In this document: one piece after another, positions 41,412-55,883 of the stretch
How the letters are laid out: the number at the start of each line of letters is the position of its first letter
Numbering within the stretch: the stretch's first letter is position 1
Notes under the pieces: model-generated
What the model was told of the DNA's origin: nothing
Database searches by the model: none
What the model saw: only the letters and a program-made list of their open reading frames with translations
Origin: an uncultured Salinisphaerales bacterium
GTDB taxonomy: Bacteria; Pseudomonadota; Gammaproteobacteria; Nevskiales; CAJXLF01
DNA: 64,000 bases
Direction: 5' to 3'
Assembly: GCA_913055805.1 (NCBI GenBank)
Contig: CAJXLF010000004.1
Coordinates: 186,001-250,000, forward strand
Position numbers and translations under genes: made by a program

Positions 41412-41545
41412 TTATTCCTCTCCTGAAAGGCTATACGACCCGGCCGGACAGGCGTCGGCGGTAGAATCGCTTCCCTGAGTCGTTGCTCAGGGCGGCAATT
41501 GTAACCCAAGCCTCCCGCACTCTGAAAACTGGAAATGCCAGCAAG

Positions 41546-42163
41546 ATGGAAGAAGACATCGATTTTCGCCGCTGCGAGTACCTGACGGGTGCGGGCGACA
41601 TGCGCCACTGTCCTCCGGCGGATGTGCCGGAGGTGGCATTTGCCGGCCGTTCCAATGCCGGTAAATCCAGCGCCCTGAATGCCATTACCGACCAACGCAG
41701 TCTGGCGCGTACCAGTAAAACGCCGGGTCGAACACAGCTGATTCATTTCTTTGAGTTGGCCGATGGCGGCCGCCTGGTGGACCTGCCCGGCTACGGTTAT
41801 GCCAAGGTACCGGTCAAGGTGCGAGCGCAGTGGGGTCGCCTGATCGAGGGTTACCTGGCAAAGCGCGAATGCTTGCGCGGCGTGGTGCTGATGATGGATA
41901 TCCGCCATCCGCTGACACCCTTCGACGAGCAGATGCTGGAGTGGTGCATGGCGGCGGGCCTGCCCTGCCATATTCTGCTGACCAAGGCCGACAAACTCAG
42001 TCGCGGCGCCGCCAAATCTGTGTTGCTGAAGGTCAGAAAGACGCTGAATCCCGAGGCCCCGATAACCGTGCAGCTTTTTTCCTCGCCAGCAAGAACCGGT
42101 GTAGATGAGGCGCGTGCGTTACTCAATAGATGGTTAGCGTCCGATGGGTCGCAGGACAGTTAG
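41546..42163 (+). CDS. engB: Ribosome biogenesis GTP-binding protein EngB/YsxC
   Basis: A 205-residue GTPase needed for large ribosomal subunit assembly. G1 GRSNAGKSS, PGRTQLIHF (G2 region), G3 DLPGYGYA and G4 TKADKLS are all present. The start at 41546 gives the usual length; the earlier in-frame TTG at 41483 extends into the divergent promoter region. It faces polA across a 480-bp gap, as in many gammaproteobacteria. Confidence 0.92.
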   Translation: MEEDIDFRRCEYLTGAGDMRHCPPADVPEVAFAGRSNAGKSSALNAITDQRSLARTSKTPGRTQLIHFFELADGGRLVDLPGYGYAKVPVKVRAQWGRLIEGYLAKRECLRGVVLMMDIRHPLTPFDEQMLEWCMAAGLPCHILLTKADKLSRGAAKSVLLKVRKTLNPEAPITVQLFSSPARTGVDEARALLNRWLASDGSQDS

Positions 42164-42191
42164 AGCATCTCGCGGCACAGGGATGTGCCGC

Positions 42192-42284
42192 CATTTTCAA
42201 TCTCGTTCATTGAAAATGAAGGAAAGCAAAAAACACTTTTTTGCTTTCCGTACCCCGAGAAATCCAAGATGGATTTATTCGGGG
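42192..42284. terminator. Three successive hairpins after engB
   Basis: Hairpin 1 is CATTTTCAAT/ATTGAAAATG (42192-42218). Hairpin 2 is a perfect 13-bp stem, GGAAAGCAAAAAA with loop CAC and TTTTTTGCTTTCC (42221-42249). Hairpin 3 pairs CCCCGA with TCGGGG (42253-42284), with an inner AATCC/GGATT. Hairpin 2 probably helps end engB transcription. Confidence 0.55.
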
Positions 42285-42286
42285 GA

Positions 42287-42395
42287 TAAAAAAGAAACCC
42301 GGCGGTAGGGGAAGCCGCCGGGTTAGTGTGTCCGGCTAGAGGCCGGAATGAGGACCCGCCCAGGGAGGAGAGGCGGGGAGCGCCGTCACTACGCT
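42287..42395 (-). ncRNA. Candidate small RNA at the Spot 42/ErsA position
   Basis: A probable ~110-nt transcript on the minus strand between polA and engB, the same place and orientation as Spot 42 in E. coli and ErsA in Pseudomonas. Reading 5' to 3', it has: a stem CCCGCC/GGCGGG (42372-42377 with 42355-42360) whose loop TCTCCTCCCTG is complementary to a Shine-Dalgarno sequence; a second stem TCCGGC/GCCGGA (42331-42347); and a strong terminator stem with T-run (42288-42324). A promoter-like sequence lies just upstream. Sequence identity to a known RNA cannot be shown here; ends are estimates. Confidence 0.65.
42288..42324 (-). terminator. Intrinsic terminator of the candidate small RNA
   Basis: On the minus strand AACCCGGCGG, a 9-nt loop and CCGCCGGGTT make a perfect 10-bp stem (42324-42315 with 42305-42296), followed by TCTTTTTT. 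It would also catch readthrough from polA. Confidence 0.88.
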
Positions 42396-42400
42396 CACAG

Positions 42401-42429
42401 GATTAGTCATTGGGAATCGGCAAAAGTTC
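42401..42429 (-). promoter_or_regulatory. Candidate sigma-E/AlgU-type promoter of the small RNA
   Basis: On the minus strand GAACTT (42429-42424) is followed after 16 bp by ACTAAT. The sigma-E/AlgU consensus is GAACTT, 16-17 bp, then TCTGA or similar. The -35 is a perfect match and the -10 is partial. ErsA of Pseudomonas is AlgU-controlled, which makes this promoter type plausible. Confidence 0.45.
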
Positions 42430-42535
42430 ACGGCCAGCGAAAAAATTTTCAAAAAATTTTATTTTTCTTTTAATTCAATTAATTAAACAAGAGGTCAGCC
42501 AGAAAAAGTCAGCTAGAAACGTAACGAGCGGGTGG

Positions 42536-42616
42536 CTGACAGCAACCGCCGGAGCGCAGGAACCGGAGTGTATAAATCAATACATGAGGATTGCGAGCAC
42601 CGCCGGATGCTGTCAG
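42536..42616. repeat. Inverted repeat downstream of polA
   Basis: The arms CTGACAGCA (42536-42544) and TGCTGTCAG (42608-42616) are perfect 9-bp inverted repeats. The 63 bp between them contain smaller complementary pieces such as GTAT/ATAC and CGCA/TGCG. On the minus strand it lies in the polA 3' untranslated region. Its function is unknown; it could be a dispersed palindrome or a transcript-end structure. An AT-rich stretch (42440-42490) separates it from the small-RNA promoter. Confidence 0.5.
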
Positions 42617-42644
42617 GCGCCCGCGCAGTAGTTTATAGGGGCTT

Positions 42645-45347
42645 TTAGTGGGCGGCGTCCCAGTTGTCGCCTACTCCCGGCTCCGCCACCAGCGGCACTT
42701 TGAGTTCCCCCACCGCACACATGCGCCCGGCCAGCTGGTTGCCCAGTTCGTCGGCCTGCTTTTCCGGGATTTCGAACACCAGTTCGTCATGCACCTGCAT
42801 GATGATGCGGGTGTCGGCGGCGTTGTCTTCCAGCCAGGCATGCACGTCGATCATGGCCATCTTGATCAGGTCGGCGGCCGTACCCTGCAGGGGGGCGTTA
42901 ATGGCGGTGCGTTCGGCATATTGCCGGTGTTGGGGGTTTTTTGAATTGATTTCAGGCAGATACAGACGGCGGCCATAGAGGGTTTCAACGAAGCCCTCCT
43001 TGCGGGCGCGTTCCTTGGTGCTTTCCATGAAGTTCTGCACACCCGGATAGCGCTCGAAGAAACGCTGGATGTAATCACCGGCCTCGCCGCGCGGAATATT
43101 GAGCTGCTTGGCCAGGCCAAAGGCCGACATGCCGTAAATCAGGCCGAAATTGATGGTCTTGGCGGCGCGGCGCTGGTCATCACCCACCTGGTCCAGGGCC
43201 ACATCGAAGATTTCACTGGCGGTGGCGCGATGGATGTCCAGGCCTTCATGGAAGGCGTTGAGCAGGCCTTCGTCGCCGGAGAAATGCGCCATCAGGCGCA
43301 GTTCGATCTGTGAATAGTCGATCGACACCAGCTTGCAGCCCTCGGGTGCGATAAACGCCTGACGGATGCGGCGGCCCTCGGCGCGGCGCACCGGGATGTT
43401 CTGCAGGTTCGGGTCGGAGGAGGACAGACGCCCGGTGGCGGCTACGGCCTGATGATAGGAGGTATGTACCCGGCCGGTTTTCGGATTGACCTGCTGGCCC
43501 AGTTTTTCGGTATAGGTGGAGCGCAGCTTGGCCAGCGCGCGGTAATCCAGGATCAGGCGCGGCAGGTCATGCTGGGCAGCCAGTTCCTCCAGCACATCCT
43601 CGGCGGTCGACGGCTGGCCCTTGGGCGTCTTGCGTACTACCGGCAGTTCGAGCTTCTCAAAAAGGATTTCCTGCAACTGAGCCGGTGAGTTCAGGTTGAA
43701 GTCGCCGCCGGCCGCGGTGAAGGCCTGGTCGGTGAGTTCTTCCATGCGGCCGGCCATTTCCTTGCTGATGCGGCCCAGCAGACCGGTGTCCAGCAACACG
43801 CCGTTGCGTTCGATTCTGGATAAAACAGGAATCAGTGGCACTTCGATGTCACGATAGACCTTTTCCACCGACGGCGTTTTGGCCAGTTCGCCGGCCAGCA
43901 TCCGCTGCAATTGCAGGGTGATGTCGACATCTTCGGCAGCGTAAGGCGTGGCCTGCTCCAGGCTTACTTGGTTGAAGGTGATCTGGTTCTTGCCCTTGCC
44001 GGCCACCTCCTCGAACTTGATGGTTTTGGCGCCCAGATACTTGAGGGCCAGCGAGTCCATGTCATGGCGCGTGGCGGTGCTGTTGTAGACATAGCTGGCC
44101 AGCATGCTGTCTTCGGTGACACCGCGCACTTCCACGCCATGGCAGGCAAGCACGTTCATGTCATATTTGATGTGCTGGCCGAGTTTGGGCCGTTTGGGAT
44201 CTTCCAGAATCGGCTTGAGCGCCTTGAGCACTGCGTCGCGGCCCAGCTGTTTCGGCGCGCCCAGATAATCATGGGCCACCGGGATGTACCAGGCCTCGCC
44301 GGGCTCGACGGCAAAGGACAGGCCCACCAGGTTGGCCTGCATGGCGTCGAGGCTGTCGGTTTCGGTGTCGACGCAGATCAGCTTGGCTTTTTCCAGCTTT
44401 TTGATCAGGGTGTCGAGTTCGTCCTGCGTGAGTACCGTGTGGTACTGGCCCTGGCTTTTGCTCGGGGCATTGACCGGTTCGCTGTAGGTGTCGTCTTCTT
44501 CAGCGGTCTCGAAATCCTTCAGCCATTGCTTGAATTCATAGCGTTCGCAGAGCTCGCGGAAGCGCGCGTCGTCCTGGGCGCCTGGCTTGAGGTCGTCGTT
44601 GTCCAGATCAAGCTCGAGTTCGGTGCGAATGGTGGCCAGGTCTTTCGACATGGGCAGCTGCCCGAGATGCTCGCGCAGGTATTCGCCCACCTTGCCGCCG
44701 ACTTCATCGGCCTTTTCAATCAGCGTGTCGAGATCGCCGTATTCGTTCAGCCACTTGGCCGCGGTTTTGGGCCCGACCTTGGGCACACCGGGGATGTTGT
44801 CGGAGCTGTCGCCCATCAGCGCCAGCAGATCGATGATGCGCGCCGGTCCGACGCCGAACTTTTCCTGCACGGCGTCGGCGTCGGTCAGTTTGTTCTTCAT
44901 GGTGTCCAGCAGCTTCACGCGGTCGTCGACCAGCTGGGCCATGTCTTTGTCGCCGGTCACCACCAGCACTTCGCCCTTCTCGCGGACCGCTAGCGTACCG
45001 ATGACGTCGTCGGCCTCAACTCCGGTTATCTGGATCAGCGGCAGACCCATGGCCTCGATCACATTGCGAATGACGGGGAACTGGCTTTCCAGTTCCTCAG
45101 GCACCGGCGGGCGGTTGGCCTTGTACTCGGCGTAGATGTCGTTGCGGAAGGTCTTGCCGCGCGGATCGAAGATCACTGCAATGCGTTCAGGCTCGAATTC
45201 ACGCAGCAGCTTGCGCAGCATGTTGCCCATGCCCAGCACCGCGCCGGTGGGTTCGCCGCGGCTGTTGGTCAGCGGCGGCAGGGCGTGGAAGGCGCGGTAC
45301 AGCCAGGAAGAGCCATCGATCAGAATCAGGGGTTTGGAGTCGGGCAC
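42645..45347 (-). CDS. polA: DNA polymerase I
   Basis: A 900-residue three-domain polymerase for repair and Okazaki fragment maturation. The N-terminal 5'-3' nuclease (1-~290) has VVTGDKDMAQLV and MGDSSDNIPGV. The 3'-5' proofreading domain (~310-500) keeps its catalytic acids in VDTETDSLD, so it should be active. The polymerase domain shows SIDYSQIELR (motif A), KTINFGLIYG (O-helix) and QVHDELVFE (motif C). Length is normal. It follows lysA on the same strand at 58 bp. Confidence 0.96.
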   Translation of the reverse strand: MPDSKPLILIDGSSWLYRAFHALPPLTNSRGEPTGAVLGMGNMLRKLLREFEPERIAVIFDPRGKTFRNDIYAEYKANRPPVPEELESQFPVIRNVIEAMGLPLIQITGVEADDVIGTLAVREKGEVLVVTGDKDMAQLVDDRVKLLDTMKNKLTDADAVQEKFGVGPARIIDLLALMGDSSDNIPGVPKVGPKTAAKWLNEYGDLDTLIEKADEVGGKVGEYLREHLGQLPMSKDLATIRTELELDLDNDDLKPGAQDDARFRELCERYEFKQWLKDFETAEEDDTYSEPVNAPSKSQGQYHTVLTQDELDTLIKKLEKAKLICVDTETDSLDAMQANLVGLSFAVEPGEAWYIPVAHDYLGAPKQLGRDAVLKALKPILEDPKRPKLGQHIKYDMNVLACHGVEVRGVTEDSMLASYVYNSTATRHDMDSLALKYLGAKTIKFEEVAGKGKNQITFNQVSLEQATPYAAEDVDITLQLQRMLAGELAKTPSVEKVYRDIEVPLIPVLSRIERNGVLLDTGLLGRISKEMAGRMEELTDQAFTAAGGDFNLNSPAQLQEILFEKLELPVVRKTPKGQPSTAEDVLEELAAQHDLPRLILDYRALAKLRSTYTEKLGQQVNPKTGRVHTSYHQAVAATGRLSSSDPNLQNIPVRRAEGRRIRQAFIAPEGCKLVSIDYSQIELRLMAHFSGDEGLLNAFHEGLDIHRATASEIFDVALDQVGDDQRRAAKTINFGLIYGMSAFGLAKQLNIPRGEAGDYIQRFFERYPGVQNFMESTKERARKEGFVETLYGRRLYLPEINSKNPQHRQYAERTAINAPLQGTAADLIKMAMIDVHAWLEDNAADTRIIMQVHDELVFEIPEKQADELGNQLAGRMCAVGELKVPLVAEPGVGDNWDAAH

Positions 45348-54316: not shown

Positions 54317-55786
54317 ATGAAGAAAAACTTACTAGCTGCTTCGGTTTTCCTGGGGTTATCAGCACTATCAGTTGCTGCGCAAGCGCAGGGCGAAGAGATC
54401 GAATACGATCTGTCGGAAGTGGTGACTCATGTCGAGGACAACCGCTGGTTTCTGACTTTGCATGGCGGTATCGTTTTCGCGGATGAAAGCGACTTCGATA
54501 ACGGCCCGTCTTTCGGTATTTCGCTGGGCAAACCCTTCCGCAATACCTGGGGTCCAGGTGTATGGGCGTTGGAAACCACCCTTCGCTACGATGATCTGGA
54601 TACCGAGAACGCCGGCAACTACGAGCGTATCGGCCTCTCCGGTCAGGCCTTGTGGTTCCCTTTCTCTGATCCCTTCATTTACCCCAGTGACGGCACCCAT
54701 TACTTCGCCATGGGCGGTATTCAGGGCGCGCGTATTGAATGGCTGGGTGAAGAGTTCGGTGGCTACGGCCCCATGCTCGGCTTGGGTATTCTGCATGACT
54801 GGGACTGGGTGCGTCTGCGTGCCGATGCGCGTTACCGTCTGGATGACGTCAGCGGTAAGGGTGTGGTGCCTGAAGCCAGTTACTACACCTGGGCAACGAC
54901 GCTGGGTGTGACTTTCCCGCTGGGTGAAACGCCTGCATTGCCGGATTACGATCTGGATGATGACGGCGTGCCCAATAACCGTGACAAATGTCCCAATACG
55001 CCTCCGGGCGTGAAAGTGGGTCCGGACGGTTGTCCGCTGGACAGCGATGGTGACGGTGTACCGGATACCTACGACAAATGTCCTGACACCCCCCCGGGCG
55101 TGGCCGTGAATGCTGACGGTTGTCCGCTGGACAGCGACGGCGACGGTGTGCCGGATGGCCGCGACAAGTGTCCTGATACGCCTCCGGGTGTGATCGTGAA
55201 CGCTGATGGCTGCCCGCTGGACAGCGATGGTGACGGCGTACCGGATGGCATCGATCAGTGCCCGGGCACCCTGCCGGGTCTGGAAGTCAACGCCAAGGGC
55301 TGTGTCATCCCGCAGGTCTTCGAACTGCGTGGTGTGCACTTCCTGTTCGACAAGTCGACCCTGCTGCTGGATTCCAAGGTCATTCTTGATCGCGTAGCAG
55401 AGTCGCTCATGAACGAGCCGGATGTGAAAGTCATGATTGCCGGTCATACCGACTGGATTGGCAGCGATGCCTACAACATGAAGCTGTCGCAGGCCCGTGC
55501 CCAGTCGGTGGTGGATTACCTGGTATCCAAGGGTATTCCGGTCGGCCGTCTGAGTGCCCGCGGATTCGGCGAAAGCCAGCCGGTGGAAACCAATGAAACC
55601 GATGCAGGTCGCGAGCATAATCGCCGCGTTGAGATGCATATCCTCGAAGGGGAGAACACTCAGCCGGTAGAAGAAGCTCCGGCCATGTCGGAAGAGGAAG
55701 CTTCCACCATGATGGAGGAAGAGGCTGCGCCTATAGAGGAAGAAGAAATCCCGGGCTCAACCTTCGGGTTACAGCCTCCGGAATAA
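54317..55786 (+). CDS. OmpA family protein with thrombospondin type 3 repeats
   Basis: A 489-residue outer-membrane protein. A signal peptide (residues 1-25) precedes an N-terminal beta-barrel-like domain (to ~200). Four calcium-binding TSP3 repeats (about 211-331) contain DSDGDGVPD and CP-DTPPGV units. The C-terminal OmpA domain (~340-450) has LFDKSTLLLDSK and GHTDWIGSDAYNMKLS, which bind peptidoglycan. A Glu-rich tail (SEEEASTMMEEEAAP) ends the protein. It resembles OprF-like porins. GGAAGG lies upstream of the start. Confidence 0.88.
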   Translation: MKKNLLAASVFLGLSALSVAAQAQGEEIEYDLSEVVTHVEDNRWFLTLHGGIVFADESDFDNGPSFGISLGKPFRNTWGPGVWALETTLRYDDLDTENAGNYERIGLSGQALWFPFSDPFIYPSDGTHYFAMGGIQGARIEWLGEEFGGYGPMLGLGILHDWDWVRLRADARYRLDDVSGKGVVPEASYYTWATTLGVTFPLGETPALPDYDLDDDGVPNNRDKCPNTPPGVKVGPDGCPLDSDGDGVPDTYDKCPDTPPGVAVNADGCPLDSDGDGVPDGRDKCPDTPPGVIVNADGCPLDSDGDGVPDGIDQCPGTLPGLEVNAKGCVIPQVFELRGVHFLFDKSTLLLDSKVILDRVAESLMNEPDVKVMIAGHTDWIGSDAYNMKLSQARAQSVVDYLVSKGIPVGRLSARGFGESQPVETNETDAGREHNRRVEMHILEGENTQPVEEAPAMSEEEASTMMEEEAAPIEEEEIPGSTFGLQPPE

Positions 55787-55803
55787 GGCTTCCGCGCTAA
55801 CTG

Positions 55804-55834
55804 AAAAGCCCGGCCAATGGCCGGGCTTTTTTTA
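55804..55834. terminator. Intrinsic terminator after the OmpA-like gene
   Basis: AAAAGCCCGGCC, AAT loop, GGCCGGGCTTTTTTT: a strong stem with T-run on the plus strand, and an A-run that could also act for the convergent ntrC transcript. Confidence 0.9.
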
Positions 55835-55883
55835 TGCCTGCAACATTTGATTGTTGTCTGATTCAGGCAACTGCAGGATTGGC

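Follow-up and report, generated by a model that had tools for sequence, protein, structure and literature searches.

A conserved small RNA between engB and polA of a Salinisphaerales bacterium, probably orthologous to anti-hemB, ErsA and sX13

The best-known envelope-stress small RNAs (sRNAs) are RybB, MicA and MicL of enteric bacteria, a limited group, and ErsA has been described from pseudomonads. The authors who characterized sX13 pointed to sRNAs at the polA loci of several bacterial groups and wondered if this was a general arrangement (PMC3771888). In a 64,000 nt stretch of DNA from an uncultured Salinisphaerales bacterium, referred to here as the window, convergent engB and polA genes flank sRNA-like elements on the minus strand (Table 1). 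Which sRNA is encoded here, to which of the RNAs known from this chromosomal address is it related, how is it controlled and on what might it act?

The small RNA of the window and its conservation

Sequence comparison confirms that the window encodes a conserved small RNA. RF02837 ("anti-hemB, Burkholderia RNA 7") is the sole Rfam family over threshold in the 64 kb. It matches 42379–42289 on the minus strand along the full model (positions 1–81) with 51.6 bits, for a gathering score of 49.5 and an E-value of 3.9e-9 for the whole window. A first-pass annotation of this DNA had proposed a structured small RNA between the convergent genes on the minus strand, and the sequence, the Rfam score, the fold and the covariation described below all bear this out. 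It had also recommended a search with the ErsA and Spot 42 models. Neither returned a match at E <= 1, the ErsA model (RF01719) over positions 42100–42700 and the Spot 42 model (RF00021) to the window RNA. Scores of ar14 (25.8 bits) and of sX13 (RF02232; 17.1 bits, threshold 50) are also sub-threshold. A model that we built from RNAs of the same order (R1) scores the window RNA at 75.9 bits, the window being part of its training set. R1 also gives a weak match of 19 bits at 55734–55839 on the plus strand, probably just a GC-rich terminator.

Table 1. Features of the engB–polA interval, in window positions
Feature	Position	Strand	Basis or remark
engB/ysxC GTPase	41483..42163	+	ORF as listed (start codon not settled), homologues; ends at 42163
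Small RNA gene, RF02837/ErsA/sX13-type, ~110 nt	42287..42396	-	RF02837, R1, fold
Hairpin SL3, intrinsic terminator, loop CUUCCCCUA, U-rich tail	42288..42324	-	fold, covarying stem
Hairpin SL2, loop CUCUA	42331..42347	-	fold, alignment A2
Hairpin SL1, anti-Shine-Dalgarno loop UCUCCUCCCU (42371-42362)	42355..42377	-	fold, alignment A2, covariation
Hairpin SL0 (5′), stem GAGCGU/GCGCUC	42378..42396	-	fold, alignment A2, covariation
-10 element ACTAAT	42402..42407	-	sequence; one substitution from TCTAAT of relatives
-35 element GAACTT, sigma-E/AlgU-type	42424..42429	-	sequence; identical element upstream of relatives
polA, upstream neighbour on the strand of the sRNA	42645..45347	-	ORF, tblastn synteny; stop at 42645

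The 5′ end at 42396 was inferred from the promoter. The RNA folds into four hairpins with a minimum free energy of -50.5 kcal/mol (z = -4.0, none of 200 shuffles being equally low). The three stem-loops and terminator described earlier are thus present, but the count is four hairpins, with an additional SL0 at the 5′ end, whose loop here reads AGUGACG, the C-rich loop of the relatives having been lost. SL1 is the best-conserved portion. The SL3 hairpin proper occupies 42324–42296 with the U-rich tail beyond; it is absent from the output of a simple terminator scan, but the stem and U-tract are nonetheless plain in the fold. The complement of the SL1 loop, AGGGAGGAGA, might suggest that it is the plus strand that functions, as an RsmA/CsrA sponge with GGA loops cotranscribed with engB. 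However, promoter and U-tract terminator both lie on the minus strand and no such Rfam family matches the plus strand over the hairpins, and this reading, which we consider scarcely credible, was rejected.

Two other elements occupy the interval. Between engB and the sRNA (42221–42287) there are two more hairpins, GGAAAGCAAAAAAGTGTTTTTTGCTTTCC and CCCCGAGAAATCC..GGATTTATTCGGGG, the first of which resembles a bidirectional terminator serving engB. Downstream of polA, positions 42505–42606 give a sub-threshold Rfam match to sX9 on both strands (35.6 bits, threshold 44) and have partial copies (80–83%) at three other genome sites (L221, L222 and L223); this element is probably a dispersed repeat and not an sRNA.

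RNAs related to RF02837 were found in 59 of 61 genomes of the same order, in a sample with one genome per species and none drawn from the host's own family. Across the class, RF02837 matched 168 of 369 genomes at E <= 0.001, mostly under the curated cut-off, and a second home-made model, R2, matched 183 of 339; E-values from R1 and R2 are rough. The first-pass annotation had proposed covariation of the stems in relatives as a check, and compensatory changes are indeed present: in an alignment of the window with 27 same-order relatives (A2, 28 sequences), 21 of the 33 pairs show changes on both sides. The covariation score of 0.387 compares with 0.19 for shuffled alignments and with no more than 0.11 for slid pairings, and none of 500 shuffles was equally high. 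In a larger alignment (A3), whose 102 copies were fitted to the model and hence lean towards its structure, all 33 pairs show both-sided changes. Across these copies the stems vary and the loops stay. CUCCCU is kept in SL1 of 91 of the 102, which agrees with the earlier reading of the first loop as anti-Shine-Dalgarno, and CCCC is found at SL2 in 78 copies and at SL3 in 72. Relatives carry C-rich loops in all four hairpins; the window retains those of SL1 and SL3, those of SL0 and SL2 having been lost.

Many relatives of the same order carry from two to six tandem copies between engB and polA, about 200 nt apart (L060–L072, L074 and L092). Nearly every copy has its own sigma-E-type promoter, and the copies have near-identical loops and varied stems; the window locus has a single copy. 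Arrays in which the loops are constant while the stems change suggest selection on dose or timing. Elsewhere in the host genome, a second match to the family model (33.8 bits, L095:2189–2290 minus, G000:C2:262688–262789) has C-rich loops (CUCCCCUA and CCCCC) and a terminator, no clear sigma-E promoter, and adjoins genes for a PepSY_TM protein and a TonB receptor. It is possibly a dispersed paralogue.

Relation to anti-hemB, ErsA, sX13 and Spot 42

Named engB loci were fetched across the beta- and gammaproteobacteria, where engB is the convergent neighbour of the sRNA. R1 places copies directly past the 3′ end of engB, on the strand opposite to it, in Burkholderiales, Azoarcus, Gallionella, Nitrosomonas, Methylothermaceae and others. 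Most of the betaproteobacterial copies scanned are labelled anti-hemB by Rfam, and the gene order there is engB–sRNA–hemB (hemB identified as PF00490). The anti-hemB/ncS04 RNA (RF02837) aligns end to end with that of the window through SL1, with its loop CUCCUCCCUG, SL2 and the terminator, and both in these relatives and in the window the RNA is encoded past the 3′ end of engB, on the other strand. They differ in the next gene, which is hemB (in betaproteobacteria only) instead of polA, gene order not being part of the Rfam model, and in the 5′ hairpin of the window RNA, which lies beyond that model.

The model R2 was trained on A3, with no Pseudomonas or sX13/Xanthomonas loci in the training set. 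It recovers ErsA in six Pseudomonas with 25.6–34.7 bits (E 9e-7 to 2e-4), at sites that Rfam annotates as ErsA, the best score away from the Pseudomonas ErsA locus being 17.8. It also gives 35.8 and 43.5 bits to two sX13 genes that adjoin polA and, conversely, the sX13 model scores the copy of a same-order relative at 48.3 bits. Convergent engB lies near 15 of 20 class-wide R2 matches that had not been picked via engB, and the promoter accompanies 18 of the 20. ErsA (Pseudomon-1, RF01719) shares with the window RNA its location in the polA–engB intergenic region on the polA strand, a C-rich terminator loop and a promoter of sigma-E/AlgU type that in the window has one mismatch at an otherwise invariant position, but the middle region and SL2 differ and the Rfam model of ErsA misses the window RNA. 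The tie to ErsA drawn by the first-pass annotation stands for position, strand and R2 recovery, while the formal Rfam match is to anti-hemB, a family it had not named. sX13 of Xanthomonadaceae (RF02232) likewise lies downstream of polA on the polA strand and has C-rich hairpin loops, such apical loops being present in SL1 and SL3 of the window RNA but not in SL2. sX13 is Hfq-independent (PMC3771888).

Since R2 recovers both ErsA and sX13, and since betaproteobacteria have the same RNA between engB and hemB, anti-hemB, ErsA and sX13 are probably orthologous forms of one gene. We think it quite probable, taking the broader proposal as a whole, that the three are lineage versions of a single engB/polA sRNA gene, ancestrally driven by sigma-E and expanded into arrays of up to six copies, with Spot 42 a separate gene. 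In the open-licence literature we found no paper joining anti-hemB, ErsA and sX13. Two alphaproteobacterial RNAs are probably analogous to the window RNA: ar14, which carries CCUCCUCCC loops and whose covariance model match is the weak one given above, and GsrN, a C-rich-loop sRNA under a stress sigma factor (PMC5869019). Of the class sample, the RNA that RF02837 scores highest (65.7 bits; L080, G166:C1:4219086–4219198) lacks a sigma-E-type promoter and has neither EngB nor PolA matched within about 3.4 kb, which gives the impression of a gene moved and rewired.

Spot 42 is present at the polA–engB region in enterobacteria, Vibrio and Shewanella, with a position and strand like those of the window RNA but no sequence match, and ErsA has been stated to be its orthologue (PMC8395346). 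That the window RNA is this lineage's Spot 42, acting in carbon catabolite control, could draw on this position and on R2 matches to Spot 42 as annotated in Photorhabdus, Pantoea and Shewanella. These matches are weak (20.6–22.4 bits), however, and depend mainly on the terminator, and RF00021 fails to match the window RNA. Moreover, in Alteromonas (L178) and three Shewanella (L172, L149 and L153) the Spot 42 sequence is followed, in the same intergenic region, by a second sRNA nearer engB. Spot 42 is therefore probably a different gene from the window RNA family; homology argued through R2 was rejected on the grounds of the terminator and of this coexistence, and orthology, largely refuted by co-occurrence, is very improbable, although a shared ancestor via tandem duplication is possible. 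The Spot 42 comparison made in the first-pass annotation is thus positional only. Co-occurrence at one locus means that a common address does not count as evidence for orthology, and caution is needed with the published statement on ErsA and Spot 42.

The second sRNA beside Spot 42 (L178:3600–3850, L172:3700–3810, L149 and L153) is apparently undescribed. In Shewanella its loop is of the CUUCUCCCC or CUUUCCC type and the sequence upstream is sigma-70-like, while in Alteromonas it has a sigma-E-type promoter. A Vibrionaceae study has reported a second sRNA, VSsrna24, beside Spot 42 (PMC3295665).

Promoter and probable sigma-E control

Upstream of the window RNA lies GAACTT-N16-ACTAAT, which had been described as a sigma-E-like promoter. 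The -35 element, the spacer of 16 and the promoters of relatives agree with this description, but the -10 element begins with A, at a position that is invariably T in the 69 promoters of relatives that were scored. The best-site consensus at these 69 loci is GAACTT-N16 (47 loci) or N17 (22 loci)-TCTNA. Choosing the best site favours the pattern, so that a test on 77 named engB loci picked by EngB alone carries more weight: a sigma-E-type site occurs on the minus strand 100–300 nt past engB in 23 of the 77, compared with 4 per bin in the three 200 nt bins that follow and 1 on the plus strand in the same bin. A fixed promoter pattern, found in about 2% of shuffles, lies upstream of 24 of the 28 same-order RNAs, the window being among the four misses, of 57 of 64 further, mostly tandem, copies, and of all seven betaproteobacterial and all six Pseudomonas copies. 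The host genome encodes RpoE/AlgU (295 bits, over cut-off), whose gene itself has a site, GAACTAA..GTCTTA, upstream, and it also carries hfq. A genome-wide count of the strict pattern GAACTT-N15-17-TCTA in the host, with 4 sites and 22 for the reversed control, is uninformative.

These observations bear on whether the RNA is transcribed on its own. It lies about 250 nt downstream of the polA stop on the same strand and ends in a terminator, and the -10 of the window is imperfect, as might be expected of a polA terminator region or 3′ UTR, perhaps processed out and with no promoter of its own. We regard this as improbable: betaproteobacteria keep the RNA beside engB and hemB with no polA within the roughly 3 kb flank, a sigma-E-type promoter stands at a fixed distance in relatives and before nearly all tandem copies, and conservation covers the loops besides the stems.

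A more serious alternative to sigma-E control, though still an unlikely one, is that the RNA is a real, conserved member of the family which in this host is constitutive or otherwise regulated. The -10 without the invariant T is compatible with this. So is the behaviour of ncS04 of B. cenocepacia, which shows no significant change in seven tabulated conditions and is reported to respond little to brief stresses, SDS among them (PMC5688073), as are the sX13 loci, upstream of which no clear sigma-E -10 is seen, and the top RF02837 scorer (G166), which has no sigma-E-type site. On the other hand, GAACTT and the 16 nt spacer are exact in the window, the -10 agrees in all but its first letter (CTAAT) and a search of the region gave no sigma-70-type site. 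Sigma-E control of the window copy is thus likely, on evidence that is weaker than for its relatives because of the A that replaces an otherwise invariant T; with the -10 altered and two of the four C-rich loops gone, its activity may be reduced. Across the family, sigma-E control is widespread and, given ncS04 and sX13, not universal. A literature search for sigma-E sRNAs in betaproteobacteria found none.

Predicted action and significance

We consider it likely that the window encodes a trans-acting RNA orthologous to anti-hemB, ErsA and sX13, with its own sigma-E promoter and terminator, whose loops block G-rich ribosome-binding sites. RNA structure, conservation, covariation, loops, the promoter of relatives, position and the finding that the genome encodes RpoE and Hfq are drawn from sequence comparison; transcription in the host, sigma-E dependence despite the altered -10, use of Hfq and the targets are what we infer from them. 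Under envelope stress RpoE would raise the level of the sRNA, and the exposed CU-rich loops of SL1 (UCUCCUCCCU) and SL3 (CUUCCCCUA) would pair, probably assisted by Hfq, with G-rich ribosome-binding regions of the AGGGAGGA type, blocking translation of mRNAs likely to encode envelope proteins. Such a block is proposed by analogy with ErsA, sX13 and ncS04. ErsA, transcribed by AlgU, represses algC with Hfq and also represses oprD (PMC8395346), the C-rich loops of sX13 repress mRNAs bearing G-rich motifs near the start codon (PMC3771888), and ncS04 is an expressed, Hfq-bound RNA of 105 nt (PMC5688073).

Using the loop as a seed, as had been suggested, the pattern AGGGAGGA-N2-11-ATG finds seven sites in the host genome and two for the reversed pattern, but the list is not specific and the prediction is weak, since the candidate sites are few and resemble Shine-Dalgarno sequences by nature. 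Candidate targets include a DUF1302 protein with a signal-peptide-like start, CcmE, a CoxG-like protein and a DUF1304 protein; the first, if it is an envelope protein, would suggestively fit as the target of a sigma-E sRNA. Energies of long duplexes ignore internal structure and were not used as evidence.

If anti-hemB, ErsA and sX13 are one gene, much of the beta- and gammaproteobacteria would have the same sRNA at a predictable address and three small literatures could be read together. The poorly understood anti-hemB RNA would gain a testable control circuit and mechanism. Finding Spot 42 side by side with another sRNA corrects the account that makes ErsA the orthologue of Spot 42.
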